DNA from: Aphanothece saxicola GSE-SYN-MK-01-06B | GTDB lineage: Bacteria; Cyanobacteriota; Cyanobacteriia; PCC-6307; Cyanobiaceae | Length of the DNA: 64,000 nucleotides | Direction of reading: 5' to 3' | NCBI GenBank assembly: GCA_019359745.1 | Contig: JAHHGT010000005.1 | Span: 1-64,000, forward strand | Shown here: piece after piece, positions 4,998 through 15,089 of the stretch | How positions within the stretch are numbered: position 1 is the first letter of the stretch | Layout of the letters: every line of letters starts with the position of its first letter | Translations under genes and position numbers: made by a program | The notes under the pieces: generated by a model | The model's database searches: none | What the model was told of the DNA's origin: nothing | What the model saw: only the letters and a program-made list of their open reading frames with translations

Positions 4998-5595
4998 TCA
5001 GGCCGAAGGCCCCCAGGCCGCCGGCCACGGCCATGAACCACAACGGCGAGATCCGGGTGCGCAGCATCAACACGCACACCAGCAGGGACACGACGACACC
5101 GGCGGCATTGGTGTCGGCGGTCTGGAGGATCTTCACCCCCACGGCGAACAGGATGCCCAGGGTGATGGGGCCGAGTCCCCGCTCGAAGGCCACGCGCCAG
5201 GGGGAGTCCCGCAGCCGGTTCCAGCTGAGGCAGGCCACCACCATCAGCAGGGTGGAGGGCAGCAGGATGGCGATCTCGGCGCCGTAGGCACTCAGCAGGG
5301 CCCAACCGGGCCCCTCGGGCCAGCCGGCCCCCATGCCGAGCAGCCCCACGATCATCGAACTGGGGCCCGGGGCCGCTTCGGCCAGGGCGTAGATGTCGGC
5401 GAACTGGGAGGGCCGCAGCCAGCAGTACTGATCGACGCTGAGGTGGTGGTACTCGGCCAGCAGGGTGTTGCCGCCCCCCAGGGAAAACAGCGAGAGGCCC
5501 AGAAACGTACCCATCACCTGCAGCAGGTGGCCCAGGTCGTTGAGCCGCATGGGGGTGCAGGTTGCGGCGGCGGCCGCCAGCAGCAGGGGCGGCAT
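4987..5595 (-). CDS. chrA: Chromate transporter family protein (second half-gene)
   Basis: A 202-residue member of the CHR (ChrA) transporter family. FSLGGGNTLLAEYHH and ALAEAAPGPSSMIVGLLG match the repeated CHR motif (a Gly-rich loop, then APGP), and five or six hydrophobic segments follow. It starts in a TGATG overlap with the stop of the upstream half-gene, so the two probably make a heterodimeric short-chain transporter. Known long ChrA proteins fuse two such domains and export chromate by proton antiport; chromate specificity here is only inferred. Its 3' end overlaps minC by 11 bp. Confidence 0.85.
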   Translation of the reverse strand: MPPLLLAAAAATCTPMRLNDLGHLLQVMGTFLGLSLFSLGGGNTLLAEYHHLSVDQYCWLRPSQFADIYALAEAAPGPSSMIVGLLGMGAGWPEGPGWALLSAYGAEIAILLPSTLLMVVACLSWNRLRDSPWRVAFERGLGPITLGILFAVGVKILQTADTNAAGVVVSLLVCVLMLRTRISPLWFMAVAGGLGAFGLINR

Positions 5596-6191
5596 CAGCG
5601 CGGCTCTCCGGCAGGGGGACTTGGCTGGGACGGCCGCGGCCAGTACCAGGCCATTGCCAGGGGGCCGGCCACCAGCACCAGCGGCACCAGACGCACGTGG
5701 AAGAAGGTCATCAGCACGAAGGTGACCGCCGCCAGCAGCAGGGCCACCGGATCCTTCCAGTATTCGTCGAGGATCTTGAAGCCCATCGACAGGGCCATCC
5801 CGGCCGCCGCCGCCACCACCCCCGCCAGCACCCGATCCAGCGCCGGCAGGGTATGGAACTGGAAGTACAGCAGCCCCACCCCCATCAGCAGGGTGAACGG
5901 CACCAGCAGCATGCCCGCCAGGGCCGCAAGGGCCCCGGGCAGGCCGCGGAAGCAGGTGCCGACGTAGACGGCCATGTTGATCTGGTTGGGGCCCGGGAAG
6001 AGCCGGGCCACGGTGAGGCCGGTGAGGAATTCCTCGTTGCTCATCCAGCGGCGCTGCTCGACGATGATCCGCTGGCTCCAGGCCGAAAGGCCGCCGCCGA
6101 AGGCGGAGAGGGCCACCAGGAGCATGCCGGTGAACAGCTGCCGCAGGCCGGGCGCGGGGGCCGCCTGGGGGAGCTCCGAAGCGTCAGTCAT
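5595..6191 (-). CDS. chrA: Chromate transporter family protein (first half-gene)
   Basis: N-terminal half of a split CHR transporter. ALSAFGGGLSAWSQR and TVARLFPGPNQINMAVYVG carry the CHR motif equivalent to that of the other half-gene. I placed the start at the ATG at 6191 (MTDASELPQ), giving 198 residues; upstream in-frame sequence is Arg- and Pro-rich and lies inside the phospholipase-D-like gene, whose stop this start overlaps by 8 bp. The order on the minus strand is PLD-like, first half, second half, all overlapping, so a single operon is likely. Confidence 0.86.
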   Translation of the reverse strand: MTDASELPQAAPAPGLRQLFTGMLLVALSAFGGGLSAWSQRIIVEQRRWMSNEEFLTGLTVARLFPGPNQINMAVYVGTCFRGLPGALAALAGMLLVPFTLLMGVGLLYFQFHTLPALDRVLAGVVAAAAGMALSMGFKILDEYWKDPVALLLAAVTFVLMTFFHVRLVPLVLVAGPLAMAWYWPRPSQPSPPAGEPR

Positions 6192-7182
6192 GCACGAAAT
6201 GGGGATCCGGCGGCAGTTCCCCCTCCTCGTGGAAGCTGGGATCGAGGGGATCGGGGGCGTGGTACTTGGCGGCGGCCTCCCAGTCGATCTGGAACGTCTC
6301 CTTGAGCCGCGCCACCACGTCGGGGGCATCGCTCTCGATGCCCAGCTCCCGGCGCAGGTCGAAGGCGCTGCGGTCGATGTTCATCGAGCCGGTCTGGGCG
6401 AAGGCCCCGTCGACAAGGATCAACTTGGCGTGCAGCTTGGGCCGCTGCTGGCGCCGCACCTTGACGCCGAAGCGTTCCATCACGCGCAACGAAGAAAAAG
6501 TGTCGTAGATGTCCCAGTCGCTGATGCCGTGCTTGCCGCCGCACAGCACCCGCACCTTCACGCCCCGCTCCCGGGCGCTGATGATCCGCTCCAGAATCAC
6601 CGCGTCTACGAACTTGGGGTGCTGGATCCAGAGGGTGCGCGTGGCGGCATCGACGATGCGGGCCATCTGACCGCGACTGTGGGCGCTGCTCCACACCAGT
6701 CCCACGCCGAGGTCGGGCTGGAAGAAGACACGCTGCCAGTCGGCTTCGAAGCCGGCGATCACCTGGGCCACCACGGCGGGGTTGTAGGTGAGCACCCCGT
6801 AGTCGCGGGTTTCGGTGAAGTACTTGTCGGCCAGGTTGAAGGTGGCCACCAGGGCGGTGTGCTGGTCGATCACCATCGATTTCTCGTGGGTGACGGGGAA
6901 GGACTCACTGGTCCAGGCGGTTTCGATGCCCCAGGACTGCAGGCGGGCGTAGGCCTCGTCGTTCCACCGGTCGCCGCCGGAGGTGTGGGGGTTGAGCATC
7001 ACCCGCACCTGCACCCCCCGCTCCCGGGCGCGCCGCAGGGCGTCTTCCACCGCCTCCGACTGGAGCTTGAACTGCTTCAGCAGCAGTTGTTCGGAGGCCT
7101 CCTCGATCAGGGCGACCACGGCCTCCACGCCGTCGTCGGGCATCACCAGCAGCCGCTGGGGCCGGTGGGGGGCGGCAGTCAT
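6184..7182 (-). CDS. Phospholipase D-like protein (cardiolipin synthase fold)
   Basis: Two HKD motifs are intact: H99-x-K101-x4-D106 in THEKSMVIDQ and H251-x-K253-x4-D258 in LHAKLILVDG, each followed by an F/M-N-x2-D-like stretch (FNLADK, SMNIDRS). The 332-residue length and two-domain layout match bacterial phosphatidyltransferases and phospholipases such as cardiolipin synthase, but the membrane segments typical of ClsA are absent. The substrate is unknown. It is the first gene of the minus-strand block with the chromate transporter pair and is divergent from minD, with about 90 bp between them. Confidence 0.85.
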   Translation of the reverse strand: MTAAPHRPQRLLVMPDDGVEAVVALIEEASEQLLLKQFKLQSEAVEDALRRARERGVQVRVMLNPHTSGGDRWNDEAYARLQSWGIETAWTSESFPVTHEKSMVIDQHTALVATFNLADKYFTETRDYGVLTYNPAVVAQVIAGFEADWQRVFFQPDLGVGLVWSSAHSRGQMARIVDAATRTLWIQHPKFVDAVILERIISARERGVKVRVLCGGKHGISDWDIYDTFSSLRVMERFGVKVRRQQRPKLHAKLILVDGAFAQTGSMNIDRSAFDLRRELGIESDAPDVVARLKETFQIDWEAAAKYHAPDPLDPSFHEEGELPPDPHFVHD

Positions 7183-7275
7183 CGAGGGGCGCAGGGGGGA
7201 ATGGGCCTTTCTAGCGGCAGTTCCGGGCCTTGGCCCAGCCGCTCCGCCCGATGGGATTAACCTGCCGCGACGCCC

Positions 7276-8109
7276 GTGGACGCCGTGACGTCAGCCCCCG
7301 CCCGCATCATCCTCATCTGCTCCGGCAAGGGGGGCGTCGGCAAGACGACCCTCACCGCCAACCTGGGGATCGCCCTGGCCCGCCTGGGGGAGCGCACCGT
7401 CGTGCTGGATGCCGATTTCGGCCTGCGCAATCTCGATCTGCTGCTCGGCCTGGAGAACCGGATCATCTACACCGCCCAGGAGGTGCTGGCCGAAACCTGC
7501 CGGCTGGAGCAGGCCCTGGTGAAACACAAACAGGAGCCCAACCTTGCCCTGCTGCCCGCCGGCAACCCACGCATGCTCGAGTGGCTCACCCCCGACGACA
7601 TGCAGCGGATCGTGGCCATGGTGGCCGAGCGCGCCGACTTCGTGCTCATCGATTGCCCGGCCGGGATTGAGGACGGTTTCAAGAACGCCGCGGCGGCCGC
7701 CCGCGAAGCGATCGTGATCACCACACCGGAAGTGTCGGCGGTGCGGGATGCCGACCGGGTGATCGGCCTGCTCAACACCCGCGGGGTCGCACCGGTGCAG
7801 CTGGTGCTCAACCGGGTGCGGCCCAAGATGATGGCCAGCCAGGAGATGCTGGGCGTCGACGATGTCACCGACATCCTGGCCCTGCCCCTGGTGGGCCTGG
7901 TGGTGGAGGACGAGCAGGTGATCGTGTCCACCAACCGGGGGGAACCGCTCACCCTCAACGGCAACGGATCCCCCGCCGCGAAGGCCTACCAGAACATCGC
8001 CCGGCGCCTGCGGGGTGAGGACATCCCCCTGGAGGATCCCTCCAAGACCCGCAAGGGACTGCGCGCCCGGCTGATGAACAAGATCCGCAAAACCACCGGT
8101 CTCTTCTGA
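7276..8109 (+). CDS. minD: Septum site-determining ATPase MinD
   Basis: Membrane-cycling ATPase that recruits MinC and is displaced by MinE. The deviant Walker A motif GKGGVGKTT starts at about residue 18, [13 protein letters not shown] is the switch region and [12 protein letters not shown] the Walker B region. The C-terminus ends in an amphipathic membrane-targeting helix ([16 protein letters not shown]). It starts at a GTG 93 bp from the divergent PLD-like gene and is 5 bp upstream of minE. It is separated from minC by the inserted-looking PLD/chrA block. Confidence 0.97.
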
Positions 8110-8114
8110 GCACC

Positions 8115-8507
8115 ATGACGCTGTTCGATTTCATCCAACGGTTGCTGGGGCGCCAGAAACCCAGCGGCACCATGGCCAAGGAGCGGCTGCAGCTGGTGCT
8201 CGCCCACGACCGCAGTGATCTCAATCCCGAACTGCTCGAGCAGATGCGGCGCGAAATCCTCGAGGTGGTGCAGCGCTACGTGGAGATCGACATCGAGGAA
8301 GGCGACGTGAGCCTCGAGACCGAGGACCGGGTCACCGCCCTGGTAGCCAACCTGCCGATCAAGCGGGCCCGTCCCCTGCCGGCGCTGGTGGCGGCCGCCG
8401 CCGCCGTGGGCATGGCCCAGGCTCCCGATGCCGAAGCCCCGCAGGAGCTGGCCGTTCCCCTGGCCAGCGAACCGACCGAGGAGTCATCCACCGCCAAGTC
8501 CGACTGA
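8115..8507 (+). CDS. minE: Cell division topological specificity factor MinE
   Basis: MinE stimulates MinD ATPase and drives Min oscillation or positioning. The N-terminal [13 protein letters not shown] and [13 protein letters not shown] match the MinD-contact and membrane-binding segments; [20 protein letters not shown] starts the dimerising topological-specificity domain. At 130 residues it has an extra C-terminal tail of about 45 residues rich in Ala, Pro, Glu and Ser compared with the usual 85-100. It is 5 bp from minD, surely co-transcribed. Confidence 0.96.
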
Positions 8508-8550
8508 GAGGCGGCCGCCCGCGCGACGGCCGGCGGGAACCCTGCAGGCA

Positions 8551-8772
8551 GTGCAGCGATGGCAGGCCTTGGCGGAAGCAGTCCCGGTGGCGATCACCCC
8601 GGCGGAGCAACGGGTGCTCGACCTGCTGCGTCGGGGCGACAGCAACCGCCACATCGCCGCCCAGCTGGTGCTGAGCCCGCGCACGGTGGAGTGCCATGTC
8701 TCCCACCTGCTGGCCAAGACCGGCTGCCGCAGCCGCACCCAGCTGCTGCTCTGGTCTCTGGCCCAGGGATAG
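8551..8772 (+). CDS. Small LuxR-type HTH DNA-binding protein
   Basis: About 73 residues, almost all of it a GerE/LuxR helix-turn-helix domain: ITPAEQRVLDLLRRGDSNRH, then IAAQLVLSPRTVECHVSHLL and AKTGCRSRTQLLLWSL. There is no receiver or ligand-binding domain. I chose the GTG at 8551, 43 bp after minE; the frame stays open upstream but that part overlaps minE. It may be translated with the min genes. Its target is unknown. tRNA-Thr starts 23 bp downstream. Confidence 0.75.
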   Translation: MQRWQALAEAVPVAITPAEQRVLDLLRRGDSNRHIAAQLVLSPRTVECHVSHLLAKTGCRSRTQLLLWSLAQG

Positions 8773-8795
8773 GCTGGGTCGGGCCAAGCGCCCAC

Positions 8796-8867
8796 GCCGG
8801 CTTAGCTCAGTGGTAGAGCAGCGCTTTTGTAAAGCGAAGGCCATCGGTTCAAATCCGTTAGCCGGCT
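8796..8867 (+). tRNA. tRNA-Thr (anticodon TGT)
   Basis: A full cloverleaf can be drawn: acceptor GCCGGCT pairs with AGCCGGC, D arm GCTC...GAGC, anticodon loop TTTGTAA giving TGT, and T arm with GGTTCAAATCC. No CCA is encoded. The 3' part of this gene recurs in decayed form at 10492-10530. Confidence 0.96.
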
Positions 8868-8870
8868 TGC
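8832..8870 (+). repeat. Left copy of tRNA-Thr 3'-end direct repeat (attL-like)
   Basis: This 39-bp segment, from the anticodon stem to 3 bp beyond the tRNA, matches 10492-10530 at 36 of 39 positions. The copy inside the tRNA is intact. The arrangement is the one left by tyrosine-recombinase integration into a tRNA 3' end, although no integrase is visible between the copies. Confidence 0.7.
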
Positions 8871-9543
8871 GTGCAACTGCCCAGATCGCAGCTCCTGCAG
8901 TTGATCTCGCAAATCAAGCGCCGGAGACGCCTCCCTCGTTTCGGCACGCTCGGGCAAGATCTGGCCCGCTTTTGTCCATCGCCTGTCCGACAGAACGGCA
9001 GTCCTGAGGCCAGGTCGGCCGTGGACGCGGAAGGACTGAGGCCCCTGCTCAGGAGGGTCCGGCTCGTGGGCGGAGGCCGTGGCCAACGTCGTCATGGGCT
9101 TGAAGCACGACGAAGGGGCCTCCGAGGCGACGGTGCGATCCACAGCCCCCCAGGGTCCTTCTGCGGATCTACGCCCCCCCTGGGACGCTCCTTGGGCCAC
9201 CAGCACGATCAGAGAGGCGATCCAGCCCCTGGTCCCCCTGGGGCAGACCAGACGGCAGCTGGTGTCCGTCCTGAGGCCGTTGGCACAACAGGAGGTCGAA
9301 CCGGGCTCGCGGGTGTTGATCATTGGCGCCGAATCCAAAGGCGCCGAGGAGGCTTCCGGGCCGAACGATGTGACACGGATCGCACAGCCAGAAACGCGAC
9401 CACGACGCCGGAGCGCCCTCTGCTCAGCCTCAACTGGGAAGGCAATCAGGTACTGCGTATCTGCAGCATGTCTTTTTGTTTGGGGGCTGCAGACTTGCAG
9501 CCTGCCTGTTTGATGCTGGAGGGGGCTCACGCCTGACGATGTC
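8868..9543. other. Gene-poor island stretch, no supported gene
   Basis: Several overlapping frames are open on both strands but none resembles a family I know. The best candidate is a plus-strand GTG frame from 9079 to 9513 with a moderately protein-like middle (AQQEVEPGSRVLIIGAE); it may be an island gene or a remnant. A 7-bp perfect hairpin (GGCTGCA/TGCAGCC) lies at 9485-9502, just before the 99-residue gene, with no T-run after it. Confidence 0.4.
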
Positions 9544-9843
9544 ATGGACAGCAACAACCGCCGGTTCTTGGCCTTGGCAGAGCTGCTTCTCGATGAGATC
9601 CATGCCGCCAACGAACTCCCCGCCACGGTTGAGAACGTTGCGGAACTCCTCGACAAGATGATCCGCACCATTGATGCCTATCGGGCAACCGGTGGCGATG
9701 TCGCAGATCTTCTGGAAAAGACTGTCCGCACGATGGAGGCCTACCGGGTAGCCGGCGGTGACGTGTCTGGACTTCTCGCTGCCAGTGGTGCCGGCAGCAA
9801 GTTGAACGACCTGGACCAATTTCTGAACCCCACCGATGTTTGA
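9544..9843 (+). CDS. Unrecognised 99-residue protein with an internal 21-residue repeat
   Basis: I do not recognise this protein. It is predicted to be helical and acidic, with no signal peptide or membrane segment. Its centre holds two tandem copies of a 21-residue unit, AELLDKMIRTIDAYRATGGDV and ADLLEKTVRTMEAYRVAGGDV written here only to show the shared pattern: LL-[DE]-K, RT, AYR and GGDV recur at the same spacing. The DNA of the two units has diverged at many third positions, which suggests selection on the protein. The start is an ATG at 9544. It sits alone inside the tRNA-Thr-bounded segment and could be island cargo. Confidence 0.6.
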   Translation: MDSNNRRFLALAELLLDEIHAANELPATVENVAELLDKMIRTIDAYRATGGDVADLLEKTVRTMEAYRVAGGDVSGLLAASGAGSKLNDLDQFLNPTDV

Positions 9844-9870
9844 TCTGATGTGCTCCGTGCTGGCTAACCG

Positions 9871-9914
9871 CTGCTGGCCGCTGCTGGCCGCTGCTGGCCG
9901 CTGCTGGCCGCTGC
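9871..9914 (+). repeat. 10-bp tandem repeat, four perfect units
   Basis: The unit ctgctggccg occurs four times in a row from 9871 to 9910, followed by a partial ctgc, with a diverged unit before it. It lies just after the stop of the 99-residue gene. A 10-bp period is close to one helical turn; slippage-generated copy-number variation is likely. Confidence 0.9.
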
Positions 9915-9964
9915 AATGATGCTGTCAGATGCGTTTCTCTTGTGCACCGGAGTTGACACCCCCC

Positions 9965-9970
9965 TATAAT
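9965..9970 (+). promoter_or_regulatory. Perfect -10 box (TATAAT) before a 56-residue ORF
   Basis: TATAAT lies 31 bp upstream of the ATG at 10002 in a locally AT-richer stretch. A TTGACA at 9953-9958 is only 6 bp away and so cannot be its -35 element; TTGTGC at 9940-9945 with a 19-bp spacer is a weak alternative. This is a prediction only. Confidence 0.4.
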
Positions 9971-10001
9971 TCCGCCGGTTCTCTTTGGCGATCTTTCATC
10001 A

Positions 10002-10172
10002 ATGCTCAAGATTCAACGTCTCCAGAAGTTACGGGGATTGATATCTGCACAGCAAGTAGAGTTGCAACTAAGAACGAAAACAGCATCTGACCTTCGGAAT
10101 CAATTGGCCGAGCTGATAGAGCAGAGCACGCGGCGCGCCAGCAAGGACTCCTCCACAATGGAGGGAGATTGA
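10002..10172 (+). CDS. Unrecognised 56-residue basic coiled-coil microprotein
   Basis: An ATG-started ORF of 56 codons (MLKIQRLQKLRGLISAQQVE at the start), Leu/Gln/Arg/Lys-rich with heptad-like spacing of Leu and no Cys, and predicted to be one amphipathic helix. Codon use differs sharply from neighbours: TTA, ATA, CTA, AGA, AAA and TTG codons appear, rare elsewhere in this window. A perfect TATAAT box precedes it. I know no homologue. The foreign codon use and position between the two tRNA-Thr fragments suggest acquired DNA. It could also be a chance ORF. Confidence 0.5.
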   Translation: MLKIQRLQKLRGLISAQQVELQLRTKTASDLRNQLAELIEQSTRRASKDSSTMEGD

Positions 10173-10491
10173 GACGTTCGCCGGCCTCGAGGTGAAGCCA
10201 AGTTGTGTCGTGCCACGAGGTTGTTCCGGCTGACAAGAGGTGTGAGATCGGCAGGGTTGTGGTGCGAACCAACCGCCCAAGTCTTCACGCCTCAGGCCGA
10301 CTCACCCCCAACGCCCGCACCGGTGCCCATGGTCCTGGGTGGCCTCACCCCCCAGCAGCGGCTCGCTCAGCTGCTGGCATGAACAACCTGATGGGCAGCA
10401 CCAATGTCCAAGAGTGTCCGATACAGATTCAAACGATCGCTGAGGACCCCGTCCTAGCGGTGCCGATACGATCCGCAGAACCCCCTTTGCC
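10173..10491. other. Non-coding or decayed right part of the island
   Basis: I see no supportable gene. A plus-strand frame around 10340-10380 reads GGLTPQQRLAQLLA and then stops, which looks like the C-terminal end of a lost protein. The decayed tRNA-Thr fragment follows. Confidence 0.4.
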
Positions 10492-10530
10492 AAGCGAAGG
10501 CCATCGGTACAACTCCGTTGGCCGGCTTGC
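10492..10530 (+). repeat. Decayed copy of tRNA-Thr 3' end (attR-like)
   Basis: Matches 8832-8870 with 3 mismatches in 39 bp, two of them in the T arm (GGTACAACTCC instead of GGTTCAAATCC). The 5' half of a tRNA is not present upstream, so this is a fragment, not a second tRNA gene. Confidence 0.75.
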
Positions 10531-10590
10531 CTTGAGAGGGGAGCGGATCCGCCGCCCTTACCATCTCCCCATCACAACGGACTGGGGGCC

Positions 10591-10944
10591 ATGTCGTGCC
10601 AGGCCTGGCTGGTGGGGGGGCTGATCGCCCTCGCTGGGGACCTGGCCCAGGGCCCACCCACGCCGCCGCCGCTCCCGCCGGAGCGGCCGCCTCAGCCTGC
10701 CGTCCGCTCCGGCGCCGAGATCCTGGGCCGTCCCGGCATCCGCACCCGCTACGTGGATCCCAGCGGACCGGCGCCAACGGCTGGGGCCAAAACACTGCCG
10801 GCCGTCGGCCCCCCGGCGCGCCCCCTGACAGTTCCCGTCAACGAGAGGGTGGATTTCACCCCGACGATGGAGGAAGGCCCGTTCCAGCAGCCCACCTTGA
10901 GGGGACTGTTCCGCTGGGATCTGCAGCAGCCCGCCAGCCGCTGA
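10591..10944 (+). CDS. Exported Pro-rich protein of unknown function
   Basis: 117 residues. MSCQAWLVGGLIALAGDLAQ looks like a short signal sequence, followed by a Pro-rich stretch (residues 22-37) and a more conserved-looking C-terminal half with RPGIRTRYVDPSG, VNERVDFTPTMEEG and LRGLFRWDLQQP. No family is recognised. The ATG at 10591 directly precedes the hydrophobic stretch. It is the first ordinary gene right of the island and converges on the UPF0016 gene with a 6-bp gap. Confidence 0.65.
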   Translation: MSCQAWLVGGLIALAGDLAQGPPTPPPLPPERPPQPAVRSGAEILGRPGIRTRYVDPSGPAPTAGAKTLPAVGPPARPLTVPVNERVDFTPTMEEGPFQQPTLRGLFRWDLQQPASR

Positions 10945-10950
10945 GGGGCT

Positions 10951-11619
10951 TCAGCCCATCGCCTGCCAGAGCGACAGCAAGCCGAAGGCGATGAACAGGC
11001 CGCCGCTGAGGCGGTACAGCACCCTCTCGCTGATCCTGCCGCCGATCCACTGGCCCGCACCCACCGCCAGCCAGGTCACCAGGGCATGGCCCAGAAGCGT
11101 GCCGGCCAGCAGGCCGGCGAAGGTGAAGGCCGGCGCCGCCGCCAAAAAGATGGTGGCGAACTGGGTGCGATCCCCCAGTTCGGCCAGGAACACCAGCACG
11201 AAGGCCTCCCAGATCACGGCACCAGGACCGCGGATGCGGCCATCGCTCTCGGCCGCGTCGATGGCTGCCTCGGCCTCCTGGGCTTCCCCCTTGGCCGCAT
11301 CGGCAGGCAGGCCGGCGGCATCCACGAGGAGCTTGACGCCGAACCCGAGGAACAGGGCCGCCGCCAGCCAGGGAACGACGCTCTGGGGCAGCCACTCCCT
11401 GAGGCCATACCCCATGCCCAGGGACAACAGGGTGACGAGGCTGAGCGCCGCGAAGGCCCCGACGAACACCCAGCGGGGGCGATGGCGCGCCGCCAGGATC
11501 AGGGCCATGAAGAAGGTCTTGTCGCCCAGCTCGGCCAGGGTGATGGCGGTCAGGCTGGAGCCGAAGGCGGCAAGTCCGGGATCGCCGGCGCTGGCAAGGG
11601 TCATGGGGACGTTCGGCAC
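10951..11619 (-). CDS. UPF0016/GDT1 family cation transporter
   Basis: Six-helix inner or thylakoid membrane transporter of the UPF0016 family (TMEM165, Gdt1; cyanobacterial member Mnx exports Mn2+ from the cytoplasm). Both copies of the signature E-x-G-D-[KR]-[TS] are present: LAELGDKTFF near residue 30 and LAELGDRTQF near 146, each at the start of a three-helix repeat, with an acidic cytoplasmic loop (about 104-135) between. Mn2+ or Ca2+ transport is inferred from the family. Length 222 is typical. Confidence 0.9.
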   Translation of the reverse strand: MPNVPMTLASAGDPGLAAFGSSLTAITLAELGDKTFFMALILAARHRPRWVFVGAFAALSLVTLLSLGMGYGLREWLPQSVVPWLAAALFLGFGVKLLVDAAGLPADAAKGEAQEAEAAIDAAESDGRIRGPGAVIWEAFVLVFLAELGDRTQFATIFLAAAPAFTFAGLLAGTLLGHALVTWLAVGAGQWIGGRISERVLYRLSGGLFIAFGLLSLWQAMG

Positions 11620-11678
11620 GCCTCCATCGGCGCCAGGGGGTGGATCCGGCCGCAGGCCGGATTTTCCGGATCAGGGCA

Positions 11679-11831
11679 TCATGCTCCGGCGAACAGCCAG
11701 AGCAGCGCAGCCAACGCCAGCCAGCCCAGCCAGTCCAGCTGGAACAGGGGGGTGGCCAGATGCACCAGGGGCACCAACAACCAGTGGCTGAGGCCCACCG
11801 TCAGAAGCACCACCAGCAGGAGCGGCAGCAT
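11679..11831 (-). CDS. Small membrane protein of unknown function
   Basis: Fifty residues made almost wholly of two hydrophobic segments (MLPLLLVVLLTVGLSHWLLV and LGWLALAALLWLFAGA) joined by a short loop. The ATG shares one base with the tsaC stop (TGATG), typical of translational coupling, so it is probably a real gene at the end of the prmC-tsaC operon. No family is recognised. Confidence 0.65.
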   Translation of the reverse strand: MLPLLLVVLLTVGLSHWLLVPLVHLATPLFQLDWLGWLALAALLWLFAGA

Positions 11832-12433
11832 CAGGCCCCCCCGGCAGCCGAGGCCGCTGCGGCCCCGGGCCGCAGCACGGTCCATGCGCTCCCACTGCCG
11901 GAGTCCTGTTCCAGCCCCCGCCAGGCCAGAACCGTGCTCGCCTGTCCGGATCCCGCCGGCCAGGGCAGGGGCTCGAGCAGGGACAGGGTGGGGAACTGGC
12001 GCGCCGCTTCGGCCGCCGTGGTGGCAGGGGGCTCGCCGGAACGGTTGGCACTGGTGGTGGCCAGAGGGCCGCTGAGGCGCAGCAGCTCCCGCGCCGGCTC
12101 GCAGGCCGGGACGCGCAGCCCCAGGGTCGTGCCGCCGGGGTTGAGATGGTTGGTCAAGGCACCGGCGATCGGAAGCACCAGGGTGACGGCCCCTGGCCAG
12201 CCCCGCTGGGCCTGCTCGATCCAGGGCTGTTGCCAGGACACGCCCAGCGCGTCGATCAGCTGGGACAGGTCGGCCCCCATCAGGATCAGCGGCTTGTCGG
12301 CGGGACGTTGCTTGAGGCACCAGAGCAGGGCAGCCGACGCGGGCCGGGCGGCCAGGGCTGGCAGGGTGTCGGTGGGGAACAGGACCGCTTCCCCCGCCGC
12401 CAGGCACCTGGCCAGTGGCGCGGCAGCATTCAT
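11831..12433 (-). CDS. tsaC: Threonylcarbamoyl-AMP synthase (Sua5/YrdC family)
   Basis: Makes threonylcarbamoyl-AMP from Thr, bicarbonate and ATP for the t6A37 modification of ANN-decoding tRNAs. AVLFPTDTLPALAA, LKQRPADKPLILM and PGAVTLVL match the YrdC core, and TTSANRSGEPP near residue 136 is the conserved SAN motif. Starting at the ATG at 12433 (MNAAAPLARC), which shares a base with the prmC stop, gives 200 residues, the YrdC size without a Sua5 domain. Confidence 0.93.
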   Translation of the reverse strand: MNAAAPLARCLAAGEAVLFPTDTLPALAARPASAALLWCLKQRPADKPLILMGADLSQLIDALGVSWQQPWIEQAQRGWPGAVTLVLPIAGALTNHLNPGGTTLGLRVPACEPARELLRLSGPLATTSANRSGEPPATTAAEAARQFPTLSLLEPLPWPAGSGQASTVLAWRGLEQDSGSGSAWTVLRPGAAAASAAGGA

Positions 12434-13365
12434 CACCCGCCGGGCCTCCAGCCACTGGCGAAGCGGGCCCGGCCCTCCAGGTCGGCATGCACCGCGAGCC
12501 GTTCCAGACCGGCGGCGCGCAGCAGCCCTCCAACCGCCTCGCTCTGGTCGTGGTGGTGCTCCAGCAGCAGCAGGCCGCCGGGGGCGAGGCCCCTGGAGCT
12601 GCCGGCCACAATTGAACGGATGGCCGCCAGCCCATCGGGGCCGCCATCGAGGGCCAGGCGGGGTTCGTGCTGCCGCACCACCGGCTCCAGCTCCAGGAGG
12701 GTGGCACTGGGGATGTAAGGGGGGTTGCTCACCACCAGATCCAGCGCGCCCCACCAGGGCGCCAGCGGCTGCCACCAGTCACCCGCCAGCAGGGAGACGC
12801 GGTCCTGCAGCTCCCAGCGGCCCAGGTTGGCACCGGCCTGGGCGAGGGCCTCGGGGCTGGCCTCCACGGCGAAGCCACGACTCGCGGGCAGGCTGCGGGC
12901 CAGGGCGATAGCCAGGCAACCGGAGCCGGTTCCCAGGTCGGCCCAGCGGCCTTGGGGGCGCCCCGATGGCCACAGGGACAGGGCCAGATCCACCAGCAGC
13001 TCCGTTTCCTGCCGCGGGATCAGCACCCCGGGCGCCACGGGCAGCTCCAGGTCGCGCCAGGGGCAGCAGCCCACCAGGTACTGCAGGGGCTCGTGGCTGT
13101 CGAGGTGGCGGCGCCAGAGAACTTCCAGCCCCTCGAGCGAGCGCTGCAGCAGGACTTCGCCCTCCGGATGGCACCAGAGCGCCTGCAACTGGCTCCAGCG
13201 CAGACCACCGCCCAGATCCAGCAGCCAATCGAGGGCGGCGGCCTCGCCGCCGAGGGCCAGCAGGCGGCGACGCCAGCCCAACAGCTCCGACGCCGTGATC
13301 AGCAGGCCGTCGGGGCCATCCGCCGGGGGCGCAGGGACGGGGACGGTGCCGACCAAGGAAACCAT
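12433..13365 (-). CDS. prmC: Peptide chain release factor N5-glutamine methyltransferase
   Basis: Methylates the GGQ glutamine of release factors RF1 and RF2 using S-adenosylmethionine. LIPRQETELLVD and LGTGSGCLAIALA (SAM-binding motif I, about residues 144-156) lead to the catalytic NPPY motif in VVSNPPYIPS. About 20 N-terminal residues precede the usual start, so a later start is possible. It is the first gene of a one-base-overlap chain with tsaC and the small membrane protein. Confidence 0.94.
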   Translation of the reverse strand: MVSLVGTVPVPAPPADGPDGLLITASELLGWRRRLLALGGEAAALDWLLDLGGGLRWSQLQALWCHPEGEVLLQRSLEGLEVLWRRHLDSHEPLQYLVGCCPWRDLELPVAPGVLIPRQETELLVDLALSLWPSGRPQGRWADLGTGSGCLAIALARSLPASRGFAVEASPEALAQAGANLGRWELQDRVSLLAGDWWQPLAPWWGALDLVVSNPPYIPSATLLELEPVVRQHEPRLALDGGPDGLAAIRSIVAGSSRGLAPGGLLLLEHHHDQSEAVGGLLRAAGLERLAVHADLEGRARFASGWRPGG

Positions 13366-13408
13366 GAAGGGAGCCTAATCAGCAGGGGCGATCCCAGCAT
13401 TGCTGGCC

Positions 13409-14572
13409 TCAACAGGGGCGCCAGCAGAGGCCGGCCTCGGCCCGCAACAGCCCGGCCAGCTCGAGCTCCAGCAGCCGGGGCATCAGCTCGGCCATGGGGC
13501 GGTCGAGGGCCAGGCTCAGCTGCTCGAGGCTGGCTCCGCCGCCCACCGCCGCCAGCAGACCCTCGGCCTCCGTCCCCTGGAGCTCTCGGGCCGGGGCGGG
13601 TGCGTCAGCGGGGGGACGCGGGGCCAGGGGGCCGCTGCCCAGCTGGCCGATCAGGTCGGCAGGGAGGAGCAGCGGGGTGGCCCCCCTGGCCAGCAGACGG
13701 TTGCTGCCCATGGCCGAGGCGCGGCCGGCATCGGCGGGCACCACCCAGAGCGGCATCTCCAGCTGCCAGGCCAGTTCGGCCGAATGCAGCGCCCCGCTCT
13801 CCACCGGGCACTCCACCACCACCACCGCGGCCGCCATGGCCACCAGCAGGCGGTTGCGGGCGGCGAAGCTGCCGGGTCGGACGCTGCCGCCCTCGGCCAG
13901 CTCGCTCACCAGCAGACCCTCACGGGCCACCTGCCGCTGCAGCACCGCGTGGTGCAGGGGGTAGGTGCGGCCCAGGGGTGTGCCCAGCACCCCCACCGGG
14001 GCACCCCCAGCCGCCAGACATCCTTCGTGGGCCGCCCCATCGATGCCTTCGGCCAGACCGCTCAGCACCGGCCAGCCCGCCTCGGCCAGGGCGGCGCCGA
14101 TGGCGTGGGCCATCGAGAGGCCATGCAGGGAGGGACGCCGGGTGCCCACCACCGCCACCGAGCGGCGCCGGCCCAGGTGGGGCCAGAGGCTGCCCCGCCC
14201 ACGCCAGCACAGCTGCAGGGGGGGCCGCTGCAGATCCCGCAGACCCGCGGGCCAGCCCCGATCCCCGGGAACCAGAACCCCACGGCCAAAGCGGCACCGG
14301 GGCGCGAAGGCCTCGAGGGGCCGAGGGCCCCAGCGATGGCGGAACCGCTCGATCACCGCCACCAGCCCCGGCCCCAGCCCCGGCACCGCCGCCAGCTCAT
14401 CGAAGGGCGCCTGCCAGGCGGCCATCAGCCCGCCACAGCTGGCCTCGAGGGCCCGCAGCCGCTGCCAGCCGAGGCCGGGGCAACGGCTCCAGAGCAGCCA
14501 CCACAGGCGCCGTTGCCGATCCCAGACCGGGGCCCCGCGGGGCGGGAAGACCCCCTGCACCAGATCTCCCAT
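13409..14572 (-). CDS. dprA: DNA-processing protein DprA (Smf)
   Basis: Loads RecA on incoming single-stranded DNA in natural transformation. A helix-hairpin-helix-like N-terminus (AAVPGLGPGLVAVIERF) precedes the Rossmann fold: VAVVGTRRPSLHG, VLSGLAEGIDGAAH and EGGSVRPGSFAARNRLLVAM are the DprA hallmarks. A winged-helix-like C-terminus (LEQLSLALDRPMAELMPRLL) ends the 387-residue protein. A LexA-box-like palindrome lies 25 bp upstream of the start. Confidence 0.95.
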   Translation of the reverse strand: MGDLVQGVFPPRGAPVWDRQRRLWWLLWSRCPGLGWQRLRALEASCGGLMAAWQAPFDELAAVPGLGPGLVAVIERFRHRWGPRPLEAFAPRCRFGRGVLVPGDRGWPAGLRDLQRPPLQLCWRGRGSLWPHLGRRRSVAVVGTRRPSLHGLSMAHAIGAALAEAGWPVLSGLAEGIDGAAHEGCLAAGGAPVGVLGTPLGRTYPLHHAVLQRQVAREGLLVSELAEGGSVRPGSFAARNRLLVAMAAAVVVVECPVESGALHSAELAWQLEMPLWVVPADAGRASAMGSNRLLARGATPLLLPADLIGQLGSGPLAPRPPADAPAPARELQGTEAEGLLAAVGGGASLEQLSLALDRPMAELMPRLLELELAGLLRAEAGLCWRPC

Positions 14573-14597
14573 CCCCGCGCCCCACCACCCGAACAGC

Positions 14598-14611
14598 AGT
14601 ACAAGTGTACT
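14598..14611. promoter_or_regulatory. LexA-box-like palindrome upstream of dprA
   Basis: AGTAC-AAGT-GTACT is a perfect 5+5 inverted repeat with 4-nt spacing, matching the cyanobacterial LexA operator pattern AGTAC-N4-GTACT (RGTACNNNDGTWCB type). It lies 25 bp upstream of the dprA start on the minus strand and touches the thioesterase stop codon. Binding is inferred from pattern only. Confidence 0.65.
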
Positions 14612-15089
14612 ATGGCTGGGCGGTGGCTTCGGCCGGGCCGGAGCGCAGGATCACCAGGGCCTGCTCCAGGTCGAGGGGCAACCGCCGCAGCAGGCGCCTC
14701 TGCGACGGGCCACCGGAGAGGTCCACCAGCACCAGATCGACGCTGGCTTCCGCCGCCACGGCCCCGTCGGGGCCAATGAACTGGCTGTGCCAGGGCAACT
14801 TCACGCCCAGCCGCGGCAGCACCCGGCTGCGGATCTCGACGCTCTCTCCATGGAGCAGGGCCCGGCGGTAATCGATGCGCAGCCCCACCACCGGCAGCTC
14901 CAGCCCCCGGGAGGAGAGGGTGCTGTAGGCCAGGCCCGCCCGGTCCAGGGCCTCGACGCGCGCCTCCTCCAGCCAGGCCAGATAGGCCCCGTGCCACATC
15001 ACTCCGGCATGGTCGGTGTGCTGGGGCAGCACCCGCCTCCGCAGGTGCCACCAGGCCTCATCCGAACACTGCATCACGGTCTTCACCAC
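14610..15089 (-). CDS. Hotdog-fold acyl-CoA thioesterase (4HBT family)
   Basis: Single hotdog domain of 159 residues. LPQHTDHAGVMWHGAYLAWLEEAR carries the 4HBT signature D-x2-G-x3-[HN] (key residues D26, G29, H33) and is followed by LPVVGLRIDYRRALLHGE. Cyanobacterial relatives hydrolyse 1,4-dihydroxy-2-naphthoyl-CoA in phylloquinone synthesis; that role is possible here but cannot be decided from sequence alone. The GTG at 15089 and the ATG at 15077 are both possible starts. Confidence 0.8.
   Translation of the reverse strand: MVKTVMQCSDEAWWHLRRRVLPQHTDHAGVMWHGAYLAWLEEARVEALDRAGLAYSTLSSRGLELPVVGLRIDYRRALLHGESVEIRSRVLPRLGVKLPWHSQFIGPDGAVAAEASVDLVLVDLSGGPSQRRLLRRLPLDLEQALVILRSGPAEATAQP

Follow-up and report, generated by a model that had tools for sequence, protein, structure and literature searches.

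Probable remains of an integrative element at a recurrently used tRNA-Thr(TGT) gene of Aphanothece saxicola

Islands and prophage-like elements that use the 3' half of a tRNA gene, tycheposons and cis-mobilizable elements are the described systems closest to the locus reported here. Cis-mobilizable elements are flanked by att sites and carry no integrase of their own, and tycheposons are marked by their own recombinase lineage together with hallmark genes. Tycheposons, known from Prochlorococcus and others, have been described as large cargo transposons of 4-200 kb (PMC10872708). The locus considered here lies in a 64,000-nt stretch of the genome of Aphanothece saxicola GSE-SYN-MK-01-06B (G000), referred to below as the window, in which 1,660 bp stand between a tRNA-Thr(TGT) gene and a copy of the 3' half of that gene (Table 1). 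With a probability of roughly 0.93, we interpret the 1,660-bp stretch as a dead, shrunken integrative element at a tRNA site that has been used recurrently. A sequence-only reading of this DNA had already proposed that an element, now old or deleted, had integrated site-specifically at the tRNA; the proposal is supported by empty sites in relatives, by other occupants of the site and by a remnant of an integrase, each of which is described below.

Table 1. Features of the tRNA-Thr(TGT) locus, in coordinates of the window
Feature	Position	Strand	Remarks
Intact tRNA-Thr(TGT)	8796..8867	+	Called by ARAGORN; target of integration, with the left repeat copy as its 3' half
Left copy of the tRNA 3' repeat, anticodon loop onward	8826..8870	+	Putative att core
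Leader, tRNA to integrase start, 153 bp	8868..9020	+	Length as in G131; left end common to G002 (78%, 167 nt)
TTTGTCC-N7-GTCCGACAGA	8971..8994	+	Common to G002 and G131; possible integrase arm site
Integrase pseudogene	9021..9318	+	tblastn E 4e-5 and 4e-21, 58% over 80 aa
99-aa ORF, cargo-like	9544..9843	+	Integrase-type gene close to every relative (G004, G006 and, weakly, G008)
10-bp tandem repeat	9868..9914	+	4.7 copies, 100%
56-aa ORF, low GC3	10002..10172	+	No relative seen
IS481-like remnant, internally deleted	10201..10395	+	Joined ends of a dispersed insertion sequence
TGTCCGA close to the right end	10415..10421	+	Weak candidate for a second arm site, a post hoc observation
Right copy of the tRNA 3' half, drifted	10486..10530	+	Putatively the host's original 3' half
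117-aa gene, native right flank	10591..10944	+	Directly after the tRNA in empty sites

The repetition of the tRNA 3' end, as the sequence-only reading had it, is exact in 36 of 39 positions (8832-8870 against 10492-10530), and no tRNA is called by ARAGORN at the second copy, which has no 5' half. Among all 39-mers of the window (both strands), the number of mismatches is 0 at 8832 and 3 at 10492 and then rises to 16, 17, 18 and 18, so that the next-best match agrees in 23 of 39 positions. A 33-nt pattern from the tRNA 3' end occurs twice in the 3.25-Mb genome at up to 3 mismatches, both times at this locus, and its backwards control has no occurrence there; the direct repeat that flanks the DNA is thus unique in the genome at this threshold. 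The similarity between the copies extends back to the anticodon loop (TTTGTAAAGCG vs TTTGCCAAGCG) and fades beyond it, an ungapped 54-nt register from 8817/10477 being 83% identical. The copies disagree at two bases adjoining the anticodon (TTTGTAAAG / TTTGCCAAG), and three more differences lie elsewhere.

The composition of the DNA between the copies is unlike that of the host. Its GC content is 61.3%, against 69.0% on one side (5000-8800) and 73.6% on the other (10600-15000), and GC3 is 0.69 and 0.57 in the ORFs at 9544-9843 and 10002-10172, against 0.86-0.91 in five flanking genes. Unusual codon use had been noticed earlier for one of the genes in the insert, and GC3 is low in both; the tandem repeat between the tRNA copies, also noticed earlier, has a period of 10 bp and is perfect. 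The 56-aa ORF had no relative in the searches of family libraries and of the genomes of relatives. Toward the right end, 10201-10318 and 10310-10395 correspond to the opposite ends of a dispersed insertion sequence; the transposase gene between these ends is gone, no clear target duplication could be made out, and the true ends of the remnant are probably a few bases further out. An ORF in a fuller copy of this insertion sequence matches the Pfam family LZ_Tnp_IS481 above the cut-off and the NCBIfam family IS481 below it. Elsewhere (L112, L113 and L108), IS481-like ends surround a 430-aa ORF that presumably encodes an EAL-domain protein, and in L112 and L113 a CTAG stands at either side.

For the comparison with relatives, a gene upstream of the tRNA, which we take to be minD-like, was looked for in 60 genomes, 36 of them of the same genus. 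The DNA downstream of it was taken from those 34 same-genus genomes in which the match was long (G001, with a weak match, and G016, in fragments, were left out), and in 12 of these a homolog of the 117-aa gene lies 55-67 bp after tRNA-Thr(tgt). The other 22 have no homolog of this gene in the stretch taken, some of them at contig ends, and are uninformative on occupancy. Seven further genomes, namely G002 and six new ones, contributed four with the 117-aa homolog, three of which have empty sites (G060, G061 and G062) and the fourth of which is G002. The genus is thus represented by 42 genomes, 41 of them examined and 17 with the 117-aa gene in view; apart from G000 and G002, the site is empty in all 15 of the latter. 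Removal of the 1,660 bp from the window restores the arrangement of the empty site, and the joined window flanks (8700-8867 plus 10528-10700) align continuously across the junction with all 15 genomes, at 80.4-91.8% identity, the nearest being G060 with 341/341 nt aligned, no gap and 91.8% identity. In a collection of named genomes, which overlaps the genus set in several genomes and is not fully independent of it, the 117-aa gene was found in nine and the tRNA 60-66 bp upstream of it in eight of these, the exception without a tRNA upstream being Microcystis elabens FACHB-917. The record of that strain has the gene order of the window and groups among Cyanobium/Synechococcus genomes, and its name may mislead. 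Strains with the 117-residue gene immediately after the tRNA, which the sequence-only reading had named as a check on itself, do therefore exist, and the observation that it had said would speak against it (the same 1.6 kb in all relatives, with no alternative occupancy) was not made. In a tree of minD plus minE, the window genome falls into a clade of 17 rows (support 97/95) together with the 15 empty ones and G002; the forks inside this clade are mostly unresolved, so that one gain cannot be distinguished from two. In G034 (L048), ~3.9 kb lie between the minE-like and LuxR-type genes upstream of the tRNA-Thr, where other relatives have almost none.

Within the genus, the alternative occupant is found in G002. 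The DNA that follows its tRNA resembles the left end of the window element, including the region of the integrase start, and then diverges to a HupE/UreJ-like ORF; on a second contig the native flank resumes by the 117-aa gene, with no tRNA copy. Among the best 8 candidates per genome, a depth at which weaker copies elsewhere could be missed, G002 is the only same-genus relative with this left end; its right end is lost. In the family as a whole, the tRNA 3' pattern was found in 338 of 400 genomes and, by our reading of the table of matches, in two or more copies in eight, from which we set aside G005 (both copies at contig ends) and G110 (two full-length copies, contig ends). Copies of the 3' part only are therefore present in six of 400 genomes (G000, G122, G131, G143, G267 and G302), which indicates that the site is used repeatedly; in the five besides G000 these copies start, by eye, at or near the anticodon loop. 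In G122, 7.7 kb separate the copies, and the tRNA adjoins the gene of a tyrosine integrase of a different type. G143 (L174 / L175, C3) has two 3'-only copies, 31 and 34 kb after the tRNA, that look as if two elements were stacked, and no match to the G004-type integrase was found at this locus. In G267 and G302 the copies are on separate contigs, and one copy in G302 has 3 mismatches. Occupants other than that of the window are in this way identified in G002 within the genus and in G122, G131 and G143 outside it.

The most informative of these occupants is that of G131, which belongs to another genus of the same family. An intact 375-aa gene lies there 153 bp after the same tRNA-Thr(tgt), in a 30.2-kb island (L176 / L177, C60) whose far end carries a perfect copy of this tRNA's 3' half and that contains matches to defence-type models (type IIG restriction-methylation, DruE, PDC-S11 and PD-Lambda-2). 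Residues 96-175 of the G131 protein match 9079-9318 of the window, part of an ORF (9079-9513) for which family-library searches returned no match, and residues 1-38 match 9021-9125, a region with a GTG start, more weakly in another frame (Table 1). The latter match was seen only in a permissive search without composition correction and is absent from the default search, and its later part is of low complexity; the first bases of the integrase start do align across the window, G002 and G131, and the window piece begins at the same distance past the tRNA as the G131 gene. A remnant of an integrase thus adjoins the tRNA, although the start region is weak, where the sequence-only reading had seen no integrase between the repeats and has to be corrected. 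A candidate for the tyrosine recombinase that it suggested looking for between such repeats is present in intact form in G131; in the window itself there is the remnant only, with a frameshift, an internal deletion of ~75 codons between the two pieces and no catalytic half, so that an intact integrase, as a self-mobile element would contain, is missing. Among the best 4 of 13 candidates in the genome of the window, no intact integrase of the G131 type was found.

When up to four best candidates from each of the 400 family genomes are considered, the window fragment is the fifth-best match to the G131 protein, and E values below 1e-50 are confined to G131 itself, G019 (42%) and G062 (34%); some match is present in 376 of the 400, a tally that reflects distant recombinases. 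G019 and G062, the nearest relatives, have their integrase genes adjoining tRNA-Thr(ggt). A more distant subfamily, typified by the integrase of an element in G004, was examined at 14 of the 30 loci returned. At 7 of these the gene has tRNA-Val(tac) or tRNA-Ala(ggc) as a neighbour, and the stretches looked at for the other 7 showed no tRNA. A 205-aa recombinase of the same G004 element was our first candidate for the lost integrase and has been superseded by the G131 protein.

At a threshold of 0.01, neither NCBIfam nor PHROGs yields a match to the G131 protein, and the one Pfam hit (E 0.21) is meaningless; the assignment of this protein as an integrase rests on its relatives. It aligns with the G004 integrase, which itself matches a PHROG integrase at E 2e-14. 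It was not found in the phage collection; in viral contigs it has relatives at 13 loci, 33-40% identical, which match it at E 5e-108 over 337 columns in a profile comparison. One of these (L243), with an endolysin-like gene ~5 kb away, matches the same PHROG integrase at E 2e-12. A predicted structure of L243, built from 11 of the 13 viral loci and of middling quality (mean pLDDT 64.7), has 7 PDB matches at E <= 0.001, all of them to tyrosine recombinases (among them the lambda Int complex, XerA, archaeal Xer and an integron integrase) at TM-scores of only 0.25-0.40; a profile search of solved structures returned nothing at E <= 1. Residues R261, K284, R351, H376 and Y385, which we take to be the catalytic R, K, HxxR, H and Y columns, are invariant in 11 viral relatives, and the first H of HxxR is replaced by Y348. 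The viral stretches yielded no tRNA.

Two short sequences in the insert might be arm-type sites of such an integrase, a possibility that came to our attention after the fact. The motif TTTGTCC-N7-GTCCGACAGA occurs, among the loci compared, only in those of G000, G002 and G131, always in the leader, and TGTCCGA occurs 7 times in the window (both strands), twice inside the insert. Viral contigs contain 4 exact matches to the longer motif, two of which (L245 and L248) are the same unrelated AT-rich sequence; the four stretches, short or partial, have no integrase or tRNA match, which means that the motif also arises by chance in a large collection. A tentative proposal, which we consider rather less likely than not, would assign the remnant to divergent tyrosine integrases that form a lineage specialized on threonine tRNA genes and missed by Pfam, NCBIfam and, in the case of the G131 protein, PHROGs. 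The TGT branch of this lineage would share the paired TTTGTCC/GTCCGACAGA arm site, and the lineage would also occur in temperate viruses and might feed a hot spot of defence genes by the minD/minE-like genes of picocyanobacteria.

Of 300 genomes searched, 3 others contain relatives of the only cargo-like gene of the insert, the 99-aa ORF, which was not found in the viral contigs. In G004 the relative lies ~180 bp before the gene for the 205-aa recombinase (PF00589), in an element of ~10 kb (L103 8223-18272) that is bounded by tRNA-Val(tac) and a copy of its 3' part (27/28), and that also has a 431-aa integrase adjoining this tRNA and an AAA gene. The same element, with its two tyrosine recombinases of 205 and 431 aa, has three similar small ORFs (MPEPDPRR...). 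The match in G008 is short and weak (45% over 38 aa) and sits between tRNA-Pro and a copy of its 3' part (27/28), accompanied by a primase-polymerase and an integrase. The relative in G006 has an integrase-type gene ~4 kb away, and no tRNA was found within the 19.9 kb examined there. Values of dN/dS for the ORF are 0.10 (with dS saturated) and 0.39, the third pair being incalculable, and are too weak for a claim of selection. A match to a PHROG excisionase (E 8e-4) was rejected as too short, at 23 residues, and the G004 homolog has no PHROG match; Pfam matches to tape-measure and phage-tail proteins in the insert were weak, below the cut-off, and were likewise dismissed.

These observations can be accommodated by a simple history. 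An element with a divergent phage-type tyrosine integrase would have entered the 3' half of tRNA-Thr(TGT) by a crossover within the anticodon loop or close to it. On the left, the tRNA would have been rebuilt with the 3' half that the element brought along, and the 3' half of the host would have been displaced to the right, where it remains at 10486-10530. The integrase gene would then have lost its catalytic half, its reading frame and ~75 codons of its interior, and with them presumably the mobility of the element; an IS481-like element would have landed near the right end and have been reduced in turn to its joined ends; and the right tRNA copy would have drifted until 1,660 bp with one cargo-like ORF remained of a presumably larger whole. 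The cargo and the right end of the G131 island differ from those of the window, so that the original element is not at hand.

Other histories deserve to be weighed against this one. The stretch might be a small non-autonomous element that arrived at about its present size and is movable by an integrase in trans, as the tRNA 3' copy and the possible arm sites at both ends, together with other integrase-type genes in the genome, would allow. The tRNA copies, however, have come to differ beside the anticodon and beyond, a ruined integrase stands where G131 has an intact one, and the best 4 of 13 candidates in the genome include no intact integrase of that type, all of which makes this history very unlikely. 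A loss of one of two tandem tRNA-Thr genes, which the sequence-only reading had named as an explanation that would overturn its own, is hardly credible and we reject it: a lone 3' half of a tRNA would not by itself exclude such a loss, but in each of the 15 resolvable relatives besides G002 the 117-aa gene is preceded by a single tRNA without any half copy, the similarity of the copies ends at the anticodon loop, and the interval contains the integrase fragment and the IS remnant.

More serious, although we still consider it unlikely, is the suggestion that the left end with its integrase, the part with the 99-aa ORF and the insertion sequence stem from different elements that accreted at the tRNA. 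The left end is common to G002 and G131 while the 99-aa ORF is common to elements at tRNA-Val and tRNA-Pro in other species, and G143 offers an example of stacked insertions at the same tRNA. Against such a mosaic, a single extra tRNA copy remains and none is internal, and the sharing of a cargo gene by elements with different targets is frequent.

The remains of a single integrative element, as we read the stretch, are a well supported scar of a kind that is ordinary among those found in genomes, and they show how far a tRNA-targeted element can shrink and yet stay recognizable. The family libraries that we searched miss its integrase, which came to light only through comparison with an island that occupies this tRNA in a different genus, and the tRNA-Thr site would be worth watching in the mapping of defence and cargo islands of picocyanobacteria. 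A search of the literature brought no report of this site that we could recognize among titles and the openings of abstracts.

With islands and prophage-like elements at tRNA 3' halves, the window element shares an intact tRNA at one end and a 3'-only copy at the other, an integrase adjoining the tRNA, a patchy distribution and a deviating composition; it differs from them in its very small size (1.66 kb), its broken integrase and the near absence of cargo. The island of G131 has the same tRNA-Thr(TGT) as its target, the same 153-bp spacing, a homologous integrase and the motif in the leader, but it is 30.2 kb long, with an intact integrase, a perfect tRNA copy and defence-type genes. Cis-mobilizable elements resemble the window element in their att-like ends and in having no working integrase, whereas here a broken integrase is in place that accounts for the missing function. 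The tycheposons of picocyanobacterial relatives likewise combine a tyrosine recombinase with the targeting of tRNA genes, and on a comparison by description only (PMC10872708) they differ from the window element in size.
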